From an uncultured Dokdonia sp. (GTDB taxonomy: Bacteria > Bacteroidota > Bacteroidia > Flavobacteriales > Flavobacteriaceae), in contig CANNDF010000001.1 in NCBI GenBank assembly GCA_947503305.1, forward strand, positions 558,001-622,000: a stretch of 64,000 nt of DNA, written 5' to 3'. Positions within the stretch are counted from its first letter, which is position 1. Every line of letters begins with the position of its first letter. Made by a program: the position numbers and the translations under genes. This document shows, piece after piece, positions 90-51,493 of this stretch. The notes beneath the pieces are model-generated. The model ran no database searches and was not told the origin of the DNA. It saw only the letters and a program-made list of their open reading frames with translations.

Positions 90-117
90 AACAGGTATCT
101 TGATGTATACCCTACCC
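90..117 (-). promoter_or_regulatory. Candidate ECF sigma promoter of the divergent left-edge gene
   Basis: On the minus strand this 28-bp element begins GGGTAGGGTA and ends CCTGTT, 26 nt before the ATG at 63. It matches the element before fecR at 662-689 in both blocks and in spacing, and also shares AAGAT before the last block. Two further copies flank the second sigma locus. The spacing and position fit a -35/-10 pair read by an extracytoplasmic sigma factor; that reading is inference. Confidence 0.6.
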
Positions 118-661: not shown

Positions 662-689
662 GGGTAGGGTAAAGTTAAAGATCCCTGTT
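662..689 (+). promoter_or_regulatory. Candidate ECF sigma promoter of fecR and the TonB receptor
   Basis: The element reads GGGTAGGGTA at its start and CCTGTT at its end and lies 23 nt before the fecR ATG at 713. It is the plus-strand twin of the element at 90-117, and its outer blocks (GGTAGG and TGTT) keep the same 28-bp frame in both elements of the second sigma locus (48776-48803 and 49398-49425). It suggests that fecR and the receptor are transcribed separately from the sigma gene and are autoregulated by it. Confidence 0.6.
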
Positions 690-45553: not shown

Positions 45554-47863
45554 TTAGAAAGAAATTCTAAAACTTAGATTCGGAGTAATGCCTAAAGATT
45601 GATTTTCAATTTCGGATAAGACATCATCTACAGCAACAAAACGTCTATTTAATTCATTTTTTCTATTTAGTAAGTTCCAGATAGAAACTCCAATTTTTCC
45701 TTTTACTTTCTTATCTATAGAAAATGTATAAGTCGATGAAAAATCGGTTCTAAAATAATCGTTTAAATTTGAATTGTTAGGACTTGAAAAATTAACAGCA
45801 TTGCCCGTAGTCTCATTGCCTTCAAGAGGTGTTGTTGTTACTCTTCCTGAATGCCAATTTACTCCAAGGGCAAATGTGATTTTTTTATATGTATACGTAC
45901 TTGCAAATGTGATTGCATGTCTAATGTCTACATTATTTGGAAAACTTCTTCCATTGTTTAATGTATTAAATGTATAATCATTTTTACTTAGTGAGTAACT
46001 CAACCAAGCATTTATTGCTGTAAATTGTTTGTTAATTAAGAAATCGACACCTCGTATTTCATAATCGCCGATTGCATTTACAAATTGGAATTGATTTTGA
46101 AATCCTTGACTTCTTGATGTAATGCCTCGTACTTCTTTAATGTATGCTTCAGCACTAAGGAGCCATTTGTTTTTAGTATAATGAATTCCTAAGGAGCCTT
46201 GCTTGCTTTTGATTATAGGAACGTTATCGTCATTTGCAAGAATCCATCGACGTCTTTCTACTCCTAAAAAATCATTTTGCCCATCGATAATCTGAGAAGT
46301 GGTTTGACTTTTAAACTCTCCTAAAACTTCTAATCGAAAATTTCTAAAAAAACGCTGACTATAACTTAGGCGTGGTTCTAGTAAAAATGTATCAAATTCT
46401 CCATAATAAGTTCCTCTAAACCCTGACCTTAGCAAAGTATTTTTATTCTTAGATTGATAGGTGAGTTCACTATAAAGACTATGACTTCTCAGAACTTCTT
46501 TGACAGAACTCCTAAAGACGGGGTTAATTACATCTTGTACATTTGTGACCCCAACTTCAAAGAATTGATAACCATTTTTCCATTGCAAATTCTCTTGTAA
46601 TTGATATTGAGTGTCTAGTTTTATACCCGTATCTAGAACTTCATTATTTTGTATAAGTCGCTGATTATTAATGATATCAAAATTTGTGGCGTCTAGGGAA
46701 TAATTAGATGCATATACTTGAAGATCACTTGCAAATGTAGAACTCCATTGTCTGTTATAGTGTATTGCTGTTGCAAAGTTATTTTGAGTAATCTCACTAT
46801 TTAAAGCATCTATAGTATTGAATGTTGTTGCTCTTTCTGTATAGCCTAATGCATTTTCTATAGCCGTGATACTTAATCTTAATTTGTCTTTTTCAGAAAT
46901 ATCATAGAGTAATTTTGCACTGACATCATAAAAGTAAAATGCCTCGTTAGTAGTCACTGTTTGGTTTACTTCTGTACGGTTATTAGTAATATCTGTATCT
47001 TGAAATATACGATCAAAGTATTGATCAAAAGTAGGTGTTTCTAATACATCGGTAATAGCACGGCGAGCAGCAATTTGCATCTCTAATTTGTTATTTAATA
47101 AAGGTATTTTTGCTATGACATCTCCATGGATAAGATTAAACCCTAGACCTCCGGAAAATGAATCATTAAGATTGTTATCCAGTTGTATGTCTATAATGCT
47201 GGAAACACCATCTCCATATTTTGCACTGGAACCATTTTTTGAGACAAACACATTGTTGACTATATAGGGATTAAAAGCAGAAATCAACCCGAAAAAATGT
47301 CCAGATTGATACATTTTGATTCCATCCCAAAGAATAAGGTTTTGATCATGAGTACCGCCTCTTATATTGACATTAGAAATAGTCTCATCTATACTAGATA
47401 TGCCAGGGAGTGCCTGAAGTGTTTGTAAGATATCGGGTTCTATAAGCCCTGGTAATATCCCAAATGTTTTAGGTTCTATTCGAGTAACGCCAGTATTTTG
47501 TGTAGAGATTCCAGAAGTCAGGTAGTTATCTATATATACTTCTTCTAATTTTTGAATATCAAAACCAATTCCTTCCCTTTTTTTAATGGCGATAAAACGG
47601 GTATTAATAACTTCAAAATCTAAATCCAGACGTTCTTGTAAGTATATTATAACTTCTGATAAGGAAATATCAGAAGGAGGTGGAACTATTTGTTTGTCTT
47701 CTAGAATAGCATCTATATATGAAAATCGAATATCATATTGATTTTCTATAGTTTTTAAGATAGGGGCAAGAGGTTGCTCTTCAAGTGTATTTTGAGAAAA
47801 AAAACTTGAAGTACTGGCTATAATTATTAGTATAAAAAGTGTAACTCTATGTATTAAATTCAC
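45554..47863 (-). CDS. TonB-dependent receptor with STN domain (second ECF cassette)
   Basis: A 769-residue outer-membrane receptor: signal peptide about 1-24 (ends SFFSQ); STN domain about 25-95 (PLAPILKTIENQYDIRFSYIDAIL; LSEVIIYLQERLDLDFEVI); plug about 125-225 (GLIEPDILQTLQALPGISSIDETISNVNIRGGTHDQNLILWDGIKMYQSGHFFG); then the beta-barrel. It is paralogous to the receptor at 1634-4345 (IEPD..Q.LQ..PGI.S.DE, RGG..DQNL.L.D.IK.Y..GHFFG shared) but 134 residues shorter: it has no carboxypeptidase-like domain and no acidic stretch. Its start codon overlaps the fecR stop by one base. It probably takes up a ligand and signals to FecR. No SusD gene is adjacent. Confidence 0.93.
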   Translation of the reverse strand: MNLIHRVTLFILIIIASTSSFFSQNTLEEQPLAPILKTIENQYDIRFSYIDAILEDKQIVPPPSDISLSEVIIYLQERLDLDFEVINTRFIAIKKREGIGFDIQKLEEVYIDNYLTSGISTQNTGVTRIEPKTFGILPGLIEPDILQTLQALPGISSIDETISNVNIRGGTHDQNLILWDGIKMYQSGHFFGLISAFNPYIVNNVFVSKNGSSAKYGDGVSSIIDIQLDNNLNDSFSGGLGFNLIHGDVIAKIPLLNNKLEMQIAARRAITDVLETPTFDQYFDRIFQDTDITNNRTEVNQTVTTNEAFYFYDVSAKLLYDISEKDKLRLSITAIENALGYTERATTFNTIDALNSEITQNNFATAIHYNRQWSSTFASDLQVYASNYSLDATNFDIINNQRLIQNNEVLDTGIKLDTQYQLQENLQWKNGYQFFEVGVTNVQDVINPVFRSSVKEVLRSHSLYSELTYQSKNKNTLLRSGFRGTYYGEFDTFLLEPRLSYSQRFFRNFRLEVLGEFKSQTTSQIIDGQNDFLGVERRRWILANDDNVPIIKSKQGSLGIHYTKNKWLLSAEAYIKEVRGITSRSQGFQNQFQFVNAIGDYEIRGVDFLINKQFTAINAWLSYSLSKNDYTFNTLNNGRSFPNNVDIRHAITFASTYTYKKITFALGVNWHSGRVTTTPLEGNETTGNAVNFSSPNNSNLNDYFRTDFSSTYTFSIDKKVKGKIGVSIWNLLNRKNELNRRFVAVDDVLSEIENQSLGITPNLSFRISF

Positions 47864-48775: not shown

Positions 48776-48803
48776 AACAACTCAATGTCTAAATCCCCTA
48801 CCT
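48776..48803 (-). promoter_or_regulatory. Candidate ECF sigma promoter of the second fecR-receptor unit
   Basis: On the minus strand the element begins AGGTAGGGG and ends TTGTT, 28 bp in all, with its end 19 nt before the fecR ATG. It shares RGGTAGGR and TGTT at identical spacing with the three other copies (90-117, 662-689 and 49398-49425). Confidence 0.58.
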
Positions 48804-48817
48804 ATTTTATTAAGAAT

Positions 48818-49342
48818 TTATATGCTTTTTAATTCTTCTATTTCTTTTCTTAATTTATGAAGTGCTCCATAGATTCTTTTTTCAACAGCTTTTGTACTTA
48901 TATCTAGCATCTGCGCAATCTCTTTGTGCTTTTTTCCTTCTATCCTATTGAGTAAAAATGCGACCCGTTGTGCTTCTGTTAAACGCGATATTGCTTTTTG
49001 AAGTCTTTGTAAATATTCGGATTCTTCCATTAAAAATTCCGGACTTTCATTGGTATGACTTTTGGGCTTGTCCTTCTGAAATTTTAGAACAATCTTTTGA
49101 TGCTTAACTTCATTAAGCATAAGATTATGACCTACAGTAAATACATAGCTTTTTGCCTTGTCAGGAGTAATTTTTTTACAATTCTCCCATACTTTTATAA
49201 AAGCTTCCTGTACTTTATCTTTTGGATTTAATTGTTCTCCAAATTTATAATAGAGAAATGTATATAGATCTTTTGCATACTTCTTATAGAAATTTGAGAA
49301 TAAAATTTCTTCACAAATATTTTTATGTATGTCTTTCTTCAT
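48818..49342 (-). CDS. RNA polymerase ECF sigma factor, FecI type (second cassette)
   Basis: A 174-residue sigma-70 protein: region 2 about 15-85 (YKFGEQLNPKDKVQEAFIKVWENCKKITPDKAKSYVFTVGHNLMLNEVKHQKI), region 4 helix-turn-helix about 115-170 (ISRLTEAQRVAFLLNRIEGKKHKEIAQMLDISTKAVEKRIYGALHKLR). It is the paralogue of the sigma factor at 134-646. The receptor, fecR and sigma genes are in the same order as there, but all on the minus strand. Its likely targets are fecR (48756) and the divergent lipoprotein gene (49490), which both follow a matching element. Confidence 0.93.
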   Translation of the reverse strand: MKKDIHKNICEEILFSNFYKKYAKDLYTFLYYKFGEQLNPKDKVQEAFIKVWENCKKITPDKAKSYVFTVGHNLMLNEVKHQKIVLKFQKDKPKSHTNESPEFLMEESEYLQRLQKAISRLTEAQRVAFLLNRIEGKKHKEIAQMLDISTKAVEKRIYGALHKLRKEIEELKSI

Positions 49343-49397
49343 AAATTTCTATAGAAATATAATAGTACAAATAAGGCATTATTTTTTGGGAAAGTCA

Positions 49398-49425
49398 AGG
49401 TAGGAGTTTTTAGAGTTAGATTGTT
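49398..49425 (+). promoter_or_regulatory. Candidate ECF sigma promoter of the divergent LamG lipoprotein gene
   Basis: The element begins AGGTAGGAG and ends TTGTT (28 bp), in the region between the divergent sigma and lipoprotein genes. It pairs with the element at 48776-48803 (only R/A changes in the first block) and repeats the arrangement at the left edge of the window. The distance to the start is longer (43 nt to the ATG at 49469, 64 nt to the one preferred). Confidence 0.55.
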
Positions 49426-49489: not shown

Positions 49490-51493
49490 ATGAAAATGAA
49501 ACATACGCCTTTTTATAAGATAACATTCTTTTGGGTTTTTCTCCTTGCTATGCTTATGATATCTTGTCAAGAAGATGAAATGGCGGCTATAAGTGCTAGT
49601 GAGGAAAATGCAGTTGCTATGAATTCAAATCTGGCAATGTTATTACTGGACATAGCAGAGAACGATGGATCTATAGATGATTTATTAGATAATGCAAATT
49701 GCTTTGAGATTAACCTCCCCGTTTCAATTACAATAAATGAAATTACAATTACAATTGTAACTCATGACGATCTAGCTCTTGTAGAAGAGATTATTGCTGC
49801 ATCAGATCTTGATGATGACATTCTTGAGTTTATATTTCCTATTACAATTATTCTCAGTGATTACACGGAGATTGTAATTAATAATCAAGATGAATTTCTT
49901 GTATTTATTAAAGAATGTTTTGGAGAAGAAGAATCTGTTACAGATTGTGTAGATTTTCAATATCCTATTTCTTTTTCTGTTTTTAATACCGATTTTGAAG
50001 TAATTGATACAGTTACTATTACCACAGATGAAGCTTTGTACATGTTTTTAGAAAATCTTCAAAACGATCCCAATGGAGCTGTTATCGCAAACCTGAATTT
50101 TCCTGTAACATTAATATATGAGAATGGAGAAACTATAGAAGTAACTAATAACCAAGAACTAGAGGAAGCAATTCTAAATGCTGTAAATAATTGCGAGGTT
50201 ATGGAAGCCTCTATTTGTGAAGAAGAAAATCTTGACACCATGTTACTAGGATGTTTTTGGGAAATAACGTCATATAATAATACCACTAGTTTTAGCGAAT
50301 ATCTTTTCAATTTTAAGGAAGAAGATTCTCTTCAAATAACAAATAACCTCTCTGTAATTGAATCGCAATGGACGACTACACAAGTAGAGAATGGTACAGT
50401 TTTAAACCTTAGCAATTTGGGAACTCTTGAAGATGACTTAAATGGCGAGTGGTTGATAGAAGAATGTATGTCAGAAGTACTTACTCTTGTCAATGGAGAT
50501 AATACAATGACATTAGCACAAAATTGTCAAGAAGAGCCTTTGCCCTTATGTTTTGAAAACACAGAATTAATTGTATGTGATCAAGAGAATACGGGTTTTG
50601 GGATATTTGATCTGACAGAAGCAACCCTATTTTGTGAGAATACAGAGGTGTATAATATTATATATTATGAAGCGCTGGCAGATGCAGAGGCAGGTGTAAA
50701 CCCAATCCCTAACCCCGAAGCTTATATGAGTTCTACAAATCCTCAAGAGGTGTATTATAGAGTAGAATTAATTGAAAACACAAGTACATTTGAAATTTAT
50801 GAAATTCAGTTATTCTCCGAGTTTTGTTGTGAAAACACAGATGTTTTACTGGATGATTTAGTAATATATATTCCTTTTTCAAGCGAAACCGTAGATCTTA
50901 TAAGCGGTTATCATTTACAAAACTTTGGTCAGTTTGTAGAAGATAGAAGCGGGAATCCTACTTGTGCATATTCTTTTACAGATAGTGGAGATTTACTTTT
51001 TCTACCTGTTACCGCGCAGAATCAGATAGTTCAAGGAGATTCTTTTTCTGTGAGTCTATGGTTTAAAATGCAAAATGAAGACCCAGGAGATTTAGAGAGA
51101 TTATTCCAAAAAGGAATACAACTAAATGAAGGATTTCAAGTAGCTGTATTTGATTTAAATACTCCTTTGTTTAGCGATAGTTCATTTGGTTACGGATTGT
51201 GGGATAATGACTGGAATCAAGAGGTAGATGTAGAGTGGACAAATACAGATTGGCATCATCTAGTTGTTACCGTAGATCAAAATAATACCGTGCGATTATA
51301 TAGAGACGGTGAGTTAAGAGCAATAGATCAAAATTCCAGCATAGATATAGATTCAAATCCATTATCATTCTTTGCGTTAGGACACGAATTAACAGGTCAT
51401 CTGGATGACCTAAGAGTATATAAGAGAACCTTAAATCCTACTGAAATTGATGAGTTATATAATCTCGAAGGAGATTGCTTTACATGTTTGTAA
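49490..51493 (+). CDS. LamG-domain lipoprotein with four tandem beta-rich repeats
   Basis: The frame opens at 49469, but the Met at 49490 (MKMKHTPF) begins a normal lipoprotein signal peptide ending LMISC; the cysteine is residue 26 of the chosen form. Numbering from the 49469 start: four repeats of about 35-40 residues at 78-110, 118-150, 160-198 and 206-242, each with a Pro-centred strand (LPVSI, FPITI, YPISF, FPVTL), a second strand, an acidic turn and a helix; then a Cys-rich linker; then a LamG-like (concanavalin A-like) domain about 460-670 (YIPFSSETVDLISGY, FSVSLWFKMQ, WHHLVVTVDQNNTVRLYRDG, HLDDLRVYKRTL). It is divergent from the second sigma gene, with a matching 28-bp element upstream. 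I infer it is the surface partner or ligand-binding protein of that receptor cassette. Confidence 0.85.
   Translation: MKMKHTPFYKITFFWVFLLAMLMISCQEDEMAAISASEENAVAMNSNLAMLLLDIAENDGSIDDLLDNANCFEINLPVSITINEITITIVTHDDLALVEEIIAASDLDDDILEFIFPITIILSDYTEIVINNQDEFLVFIKECFGEEESVTDCVDFQYPISFSVFNTDFEVIDTVTITTDEALYMFLENLQNDPNGAVIANLNFPVTLIYENGETIEVTNNQELEEAILNAVNNCEVMEASICEEENLDTMLLGCFWEITSYNNTTSFSEYLFNFKEEDSLQITNNLSVIESQWTTTQVENGTVLNLSNLGTLEDDLNGEWLIEECMSEVLTLVNGDNTMTLAQNCQEEPLPLCFENTELIVCDQENTGFGIFDLTEATLFCENTEVYNIIYYEALADAEAGVNPIPNPEAYMSSTNPQEVYYRVELIENTSTFEIYEIQLFSEFCCENTDVLLDDLVIYIPFSSETVDLISGYHLQNFGQFVEDRSGNPTCAYSFTDSGDLLFLPVTAQNQIVQGDSFSVSLWFKMQNEDPGDLERLFQKGIQLNEGFQVAVFDLNTPLFSDSSFGYGLWDNDWNQEVDVEWTNTDWHHLVVTVDQNNTVRLYRDGELRAIDQNSSIDIDSNPLSFFALGHELTGHLDDLRVYKRTLNPTEIDELYNLEGDCFTCL

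Follow-up and report, generated by a model that had tools for sequence, protein, structure and literature searches.

The stretch of DNA considered in this study (the window, 64,000 nt from a genome of 4.26 Mb) carries two loci at which a gene for an ECF sigma factor lies beside a gene for a FecR-type anti-sigma factor and, behind that, one for a TonB-dependent receptor. The features of both loci are collected in Table 1. The two sigma factors pass the ECF sigma model TIGR02937 (86.0 and 93.9 bits, cut-off 42.9) and lie above the cut-offs of PF04542 and PF08281 (sigma regions 2 and 4), and both fall below the curated cut-off of TIGR02985 (Sig70_bacteroi1), scoring 113.2 and 111.6 bits against 126.4. 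Among titled records, those nearest to the locus-2 sigma are four from Dokdonia (82, 81, 80, and 80% identity). At both loci the FecR gene beside the sigma gene is well supported (PF04773, 67.9 and 67.5 bits, cut-off 24). The receptors both contain a Plug domain, and no N-terminal signalling (STN) model is listed for either at E 0.001. The receptor gene of locus 2 and fecR are probably in one operon. Locus 1 is unlike the others in its divergent operon, which encodes a 7TM-transglutaminase protein (PF14402), an ATP-grasp protein (PF14397), and an outer-membrane protein (without a Pfam match and named by its sequence).

Table 1. Genes and predicted promoter elements of the two loci, in window coordinates. 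Papers given by PMC number are cited, here and throughout, from partial texts.
Feature	Position	Strand	Remarks
Locus 1, divergent element, before 7TM-transglutaminase gene	90..117	-	GGGTAGGGTATACATCAAGATACCTGTT; pattern match
Locus 1, ECF sigma factor, 170 aa	134..646	+	helix SQKAIEKRMH (K155, H158 in locus-2 numbering), A80
Locus 1, element before fecR	662..689	+	GGGTAGGGTAAAGTTAAAGATCCCTGTT; pattern match
Locus 1, FecR-type anti-sigma factor, 303 aa	713..1624	+	
Locus 1, TonB-dependent receptor, 903 aa	1634..4345	+	
Locus 2, TonB-dependent receptor, 769-aa ORF, downstream of fecR	45554..47863	-	Plug domain
Locus 2, FecR-type anti-sigma factor, 297 aa	47863..48756	-	PF04773, PF16344
Locus 2, element before fecR, ECF-type promoter (predicted)	48776..48803	-	minus strand AGGTAGGGGATTTAGACATTGAGTTGTT; pattern and matrix match; predicted transcription start ~48767, 11 nt before fecR ATG
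Locus 2, boxes of fecR element	48801-48796 (-35 GTAGGG); 48778-48776 (-10 GTT)	-	register from PMC6411747
Locus 2, ECF sigma factor, 174 aa	48818..49342	-	helix STKAVEKRIY (K155, Y158), K80
Locus 2, element before divergent LamG lipoprotein, ECF-type promoter (predicted)	49398..49425	+	plus strand AGGTAGGAGTTTTTAGAGTTAGATTGTT; pattern and matrix match; predicted transcription start ~49434
Locus 2, boxes of divergent element	49400-49405 (-35 GTAGGA); 49423-49425 (-10 GTT)	+	
Locus 2, lipoprotein, 667 aa, C-terminal LamG-type domain	49490..51493	+	family downstream of most divergent elements

An earlier note on this DNA had proposed that one 28-bp element flanks the second sigma gene on both sides and that RGGTAGGR-N16-TGTT describes all four copies at the two loci. 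Both locus-2 elements are indeed present, and the exact matches of the pattern in the window are precisely these four. With one mismatch allowed, the window contains five matches, as compared to a mean of 0.66 in 100 shuffled sequences, none of which reached five. The whole genome contains seven exact matches, and one to the reversed control pattern. A stricter pattern, GGTAGGR-N15-YTGTTNNA, has four matches in the genome without mismatch: the divergent element of locus 1, both elements of locus 2, and a site on contig C8. Allowing one mismatch brings the total to 23, near the 19 of the reversed control. Nineteen of the 23 carry the mismatch, two of these being known elements of locus 1, and the others, including one that sits within a gene on contig C3, look like background. 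Off-spacing controls, patterns one base longer, gave 29 matches against 26 for the reversed version in one case and 0 against 3 in the other, and no known element was among them.

A search for the FecR family finds three members in the genome, of which two lie in the window and the third on contig 2. This third locus keeps the gene order of the others (divergent lipoprotein, sigma, fecR, and a receptor-like frame, the last judged by eye), and its elements, beginning GTTTGGGACA before fecR and TTTCGGGACA before the lipoprotein gene, keep TTGTT and differ at the -35. The pattern TTYSGGACA-N11-RGTTGTTNTA, with up to two mismatches, finds only these two elements in the genome, both exactly; its reversed control finds 3. 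The C8 site (G000:C8:111967-111996, minus strand; L237, L007) is an intergenic element 180 bp before the gene of a 377-aa lipoprotein with two CXXCH motifs, a gene that is a possible third target of the locus-2 sigma. Locus 1 extends beyond the left edge of the window: G000:C1:555534-558117 (L041), mostly outside it, has one element before the divergent operon and a second in front of the outer-membrane protein gene. A separate repeat was seen in the stretches read, the palindrome TTTCGCGAAA, which recurs with similar flanks near 1790, 44553, 51580, and 53900 of the window, both within and between genes.

The placement of the element was assessed in 133 sources (the window, the third locus, 22 loci from the genus, and 109 from the family), which yielded 127 sigma-fecR pairs. 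With a matrix trained on the sigma-fecR gaps only and a threshold of 8 bits, 108 of 125 gaps contain an element. The divergent strand upstream of sigma, which played no part in the training, has an element in 103 of 127 loci, as compared to 5 of 127 for the opposite (sigma) strand there and about 1 in shuffled sequences. The element ends a median of 21 nt before the start of fecR (interquartile range 20-22, range 8-112, n = 108). Seventeen of the 125 gaps have no element, 11 of them in long-branch outer lineages. In three of the five loci with a hit on the sigma strand (L106, L090, and L135) the gap between sigma and fecR is 2 to 11 bases long and without an element, and a strong site of 14 to 18.5 bits stands before sigma, so a few lineages may carry the promoter there instead. 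A different signal is found upstream of the sigma genes: TAnnTTTG, the box of the primary sigma factor (PMC7366714, PMC9723704), lies within 120 nt of the gene in 48 of 107 loci, as compared to 11 on the antisense strand and 9.3 in shuffled sequences. This box is absent from the 130 nt before either sigma gene of the window.

If the G of GTT is counted as -11, then positions 3-8 of the element fall at -34 to -29, the place of GGAAYA in promoters of Mycobacterium tuberculosis SigH (PMC6411747), and GTAGGA-N17-GTT of the element may be set directly against GGAAYA-N17-GTT of the solved SigH complex. Since both the register and the 17-bp spacer match those of a solved ECF promoter, the elements very probably serve fecR and the lipoprotein gene as ECF promoters. 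They have the known ECF -35/-10 register but not the GGAAC-type -35 consensus, showing GTAGG, TCAGG, or TTGGG instead, and I therefore claim them as a variant working like an ECF promoter, not as a member of the GGAAC type.

The products of the divergent genes form, for the most part, a single family: 68 of 81 divergent frames of at least 60 aa carry the signature of one lipoprotein family, and 75 of 82 begin with a lipobox-like sequence (by a loose expression), with no frame obtained from 21 loci. Apart from the LamG-type domain at the C-terminal end, no model came above its cut-off in the members scanned (two with Pfam, four with NCBIfam). The predicted structure of the locus-2 lipoprotein has a mean pLDDT of 64, with about half of the model confident. 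Foldseek gave no match to it at E 0.001 or better, and I therefore claim no function for this protein. The best match, a lipocalin-like protein of Bacteroides (4qrl, E 0.0033), is a weak likeness over part of the model only.

The -35 sequence differs from locus to locus in step with residues 155 and 158 of the sigma factor. Lys155 with Ser, His, or Met at 158 goes with GTAGGGT, Lys155 with Tyr158 goes with GTAGGA, Tyr155 with TCAGGA, and His155 with TTGGGA(C). The following counts come from sigmas sorted by these two residues alone and give fecR elements first, divergent elements second. K155 with S, H, or M158 is accompanied by GT at positions 3-4 in 40/43 and 38/39 elements and by G8 in 43/43 and 39/39; K155 with Y158 by GT in 42/43 and 39/41 and by A8 in 40/43 and 35/41; Y155 by TC at 3-4 in 18/20 and 18/19; and H155 by GGGA at 5-8 in 2/2 and 2/2. 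At the -10 end, Lys80 is found with T24 (53/56 and 51/53) and Ala80 with C24 (32/43 and 24/41). Matrices trained on the fecR elements of other clades (leaving out relatives of at least 75% identity and omitting the two H155 loci) place the divergent element in the right sigma group in 94 of 99 cases from the -35 (positions 1-9) and in 55 of 99 from positions 22-32.

A further set of 69 loci, 67 with a fecR element and 56 with a divergent element at 8 bits, behaves similarly for most elements, with some exceptions: on the fecR side Tyr155 and TC occur together in 27/27, Lys155-Tyr158 and GT..A in 16/17, and His155 and GGGAC in 22/23. The corresponding counts for divergent elements are 25/26, 9/13 (four of the 13 break the rule), and 8/17, and by my own reading of the rows seven of the nine His155 divergent elements without GGGAC retain GGGA. 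Most of these loci come from the family of the first set and so represent new loci, not an independent branch of life. A phylum-wide collection of 26 sigma genes near FecR (29 loci examined) includes two loci with the element in both gaps (L215 and L219), one with it on the divergent side only (L209, 12.2 bits), and one with it in the gap only (L211, 8.5 bits). The helix contains KAVEKR in L215, L219, and L209 and differs in L211. L215 and L219 obey the code at both elements; L209 does so at position 8, not at 9.

Two of the residues concerned can be placed on solved structures through an alignment with M. tuberculosis SigE, from which I carried the numbering over to E. coli. Residue 155 aligns with the Ser equal to S172 of Escherichia coli sigmaE, which reads the second G of the -35 (PMC6713349), and residue 139 aligns with Y156, beside the position equivalent to 8 (PMC6713349). 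By mutual information with positions 3 and 8, A124, A152, and M75 rank at least as high as residues 155, 139, and 158 of the helix, the residues outside the helix that rank as high being A124 for position 3 and M75 for position 8. Among these related marine bacteria, bases of the elements and a few sigma residues vary jointly, a pattern suggestive of a readable recognition code.

The same correlations might conceivably arise if all these sigmas had one common specificity and read all the elements, the differences between loci being the result of drift and descent, an account that I regard as improbable. GG at 6-7 and TGTT, present in nearly all elements, would agree with it, as would the scores of the locus-2 fecR element over all 32 positions, 25.1 under the matrices of both groups, and the small number of independent switches at positions 3-4. 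On the sigma tree these positions have one shared branch each (p 0.17 and 0.12), and with so few switches much of the correlation there is shared descent. Class III forms one clade (support 100/97) and classes changed rarely, so the correlation at these positions rests on few events. Common specificity does not, however, account for how the two copies of a locus behave. They share a -35 class in 89 of 101 loci, and where a genome has more than one locus (27 genomes, 59 loci) the nearest -35 is strictly that of the own copy for 52 loci; no two loci of one class occur together in 24 of those 27 genomes. Nor does it account for the alignment of residue 155, the one that goes with positions 3-5, with a residue contacting the equivalent base in solved structures.

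It is also at odds with the changes along the tree. The two copies change on the same branch of the sigma tree at position 8 (p 0.0005), 28 (p 0.0015), and 24 (p 0.0025), with positions 2, 20, 26, 5, and 13 next in strength; after Bonferroni correction over the 32 positions (limit 0.0016), 8 and 28 alone remain significant. Residue 155 changes together with position 4 (p 0.0005 for the fecR element, 0.05 for the divergent element), and residue 80, modestly, with position 24 (p 0.04 and 0.03). Residue 139 and position 8 have one common branch (p 0.12 and 0.19), residue 158 and position 8 have none, and nothing was seen on the tree between residue 78 and position 28. Compared position by position over the 101 loci, own-locus copies agree above random pairing most at 3, 4, 8, 9, 24, 25, 26, and 28 and more weakly at 2, 5, and 20, the strongest locus-specific positions being 3, 4, 8, and 9 in the -35 and 24 and 28 in the -10. 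Permutation within -35 class leaves positions 4, 5, 8, 18, 20, 21, 24, and 28 below 0.05 in 57 loci (75% sigma identity), and thinning to 19 loci (60%) leaves significance only at 24 and 28.

In one genome (G024) a divergent element departs from its own sigma: L127 has a divergent element of the GTAGGGT/TGTC type and a sigma of the GTAGGA group, and the sigma of L109, a second locus there, is accompanied by GTAGGGT/TGTC elements. The L127 gene may therefore be wired to the L109 sigma.

The earlier note also held that the element has a common part and a sigma-specific part, which agrees in kind with what was found, and it sited the specific part in the spacer, as the block AAGATNCC in locus 1, a siting that fares poorly. 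The block is common to the two copies in the window and is missing from the third copy of locus 1 (G000:C1:555534-555561, before the outer-membrane protein gene). Spacer positions 10-21 place 43 of 99 divergent elements in the right group, where the largest group amounts to 41 of 99; set against the 94 of 99 for the -35, this rules out the spacer as the main determinant of specificity. Some likeness between the spacers of a locus is nonetheless real. Their identity is 0.474 as compared to 0.450 under permutation within related groups (p 0.004), and within genomes it is slightly higher over positions 10-23 (0.533 vs. 0.419, p 6e-4). The block 13-21 shows a small effect within class (0.398 vs. 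0.354, p 0.008 in 57 loci; p 0.048 in 19 loci), and position 20 changes together in the two copies on the sigma tree (p 0.01). At the remaining spacer positions (10-19 and 21-23) the copies show only weak co-change, the lowest p values being 0.045 (position 13) and 0.052 (position 16), and the own copy is strictly the best in only 33 of 59 loci over 10-23 and 29 of 59 over 13-21. That a spacer block determines which sigma reads the element is thus very improbable.

A third account, that the element is an operator to which some regulator, not the sigma, binds, the promoter being a separate sequence close by, could appeal to its length, strand orientation, and conservation and to the promoter role being a prediction, but the fixed two-box geometry in the ECF register, the correlation of its bases with residues of the sigma recognition helix, and the near-constant distance to the fecR start make it the least credible of all.

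From the computed placement, fixed spacing, and base-residue correlation of the elements, I conclude, with a probability of about 0.88, that the two locus-2 elements are an outward-facing pair of ECF promoters read by the sigma factor encoded between them, which drive fecR with the receptor on one side and the lipoprotein gene on the other, and that a few residues of the sigma go with the bases that vary. One element would drive fecR and the TonB-dependent receptor behind it, and the other the divergent surface lipoprotein. The sigma gene would be under neither; 48 of 107 related loci show a separate housekeeping-type box before it. Activation of the sigma should therefore raise its target and the receptor and, through more of its own anti-sigma factor, close a negative feedback loop. 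The elements have a common core, GG at 6-7 plus GTT or GTC at 26-28, and sigma groups differ at 3, 4, 5, 8, and 9 in the -35 and at 24 and 28 in the -10, with residue 155 paired, presumably by contact, to positions 3-5, residues 158 and 139 to 8-9, and residue 80 to 24. The insulation of the two window loci that the earlier note envisaged is borne out only in part: with the -35 matrices, the locus-2 fecR element reaches 14.4 for its own group and 10.9 for the locus-1 group, a difference that is gone in the equal scores over all positions. Insulation between the two looks partial.

A minority of loci have copies more alike than this promoter-pair reading requires, and the reading stands without them. 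At least 12 of 14 spacer bases agree in 9 of 101 loci, as compared to 0.5 expected from same-class pairs of other loci, and in an enlarged set concerted spacers occur in 11 of 165 loci. In the 11 loci with at least 11 spacer bases agreeing, the 20-nt flanks agree at only 4 to 12 of 20 positions. Three loci of one genus (L055, L052, and L050) have spacers that differ between loci and are nearly the same in both copies of each. Such concerted copies are the basis of a tentative idea, which I consider unlikely, that short-tract conversion between the inverted-repeat promoters (for example, by template switching in replication) occasionally copies one onto the other. If so, a base change matched to a change in the sigma could reach the two promoters of the regulon in a single step, and this would account for a joint shift in the specificity of sigma and promoters that leaves the circuit unbroken. 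Concerted evolution as a general rule is rejected, because orthologous spacers (A with A, B with B) are more alike than own pairs, 0.510 vs. 0.455 at 70-80% sigma identity; it remains for the minority. Two loci, L073 and L266, have promoter copies identical across all 32 bases compared.

Each locus offers two natural promoters of presumed ownership, so the bases of the -35 can be aligned with sigma residues over many species, and that alignment constitutes a directly testable recognition code. The code predicts small regulons and supplies natural sigma-promoter pairs for work on insulation. In the open-access literature, so far as its partial texts extend, I found no promoter for this FecR-linked subgroup of sigmas; the classification of Casas-Pastor may hold predicted motifs.

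Among the systems closest to the present one is FecI-FecR-FecA of E. coli and relatives, which also combines an ECF sigma, a FecR-type anti-sigma factor, and a TonB-dependent receptor and in which the sigma likewise does not drive its own gene (PMC9249621). The E. coli genes fecI and fecR are both transcribed from one promoter under Fur control, and FecI acts on a single promoter, that of fecA (PMC9249621), whereas here an ECF promoter is predicted for fecR itself and another for a divergent lipoprotein gene. In regulation, the heme system HasI-HasS is comparable: the sigma drives the gene of its anti-sigma factor, and hasI is not autoregulated (PMC9249621). As for the promoters themselves, those of the GGAAC/GTT type (E. 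coli sigmaE, M. tuberculosis SigH, and Bacillus subtilis SigW) share the SigH register and 17-bp spacer (PMC6411747) and the GTT -10, the last base of which is flipped out (PMC6411747, PMC6713349). They differ in the -35, which here is GTAGGA, GTAGGGT, TCAGGA, or TTGGGA(C), and where sigmaE has Ser172 the sigmas described here have Lys, Tyr, or His at 155. The non-canonical PM2 promoters of Bacteroides thetaiotaomicron, compared at their TGTT part, have that sequence near the -10 and have been proposed to be ECF-read (PMC12596196, PMC7366714), but in the partial texts they are tied to SigW-1, SigH-1, and stress genes, and the motif is called near-palindromic. SM6 of Flavobacterium psychrophilum is, like the present element, a flavobacterial motif assigned to ECF sigmas, with a sigma/anti-sigma pair among its targets; unlike it, SM6 has a CGT box as its -10 and counts type IX secretion genes among those targets (PMC9723704).
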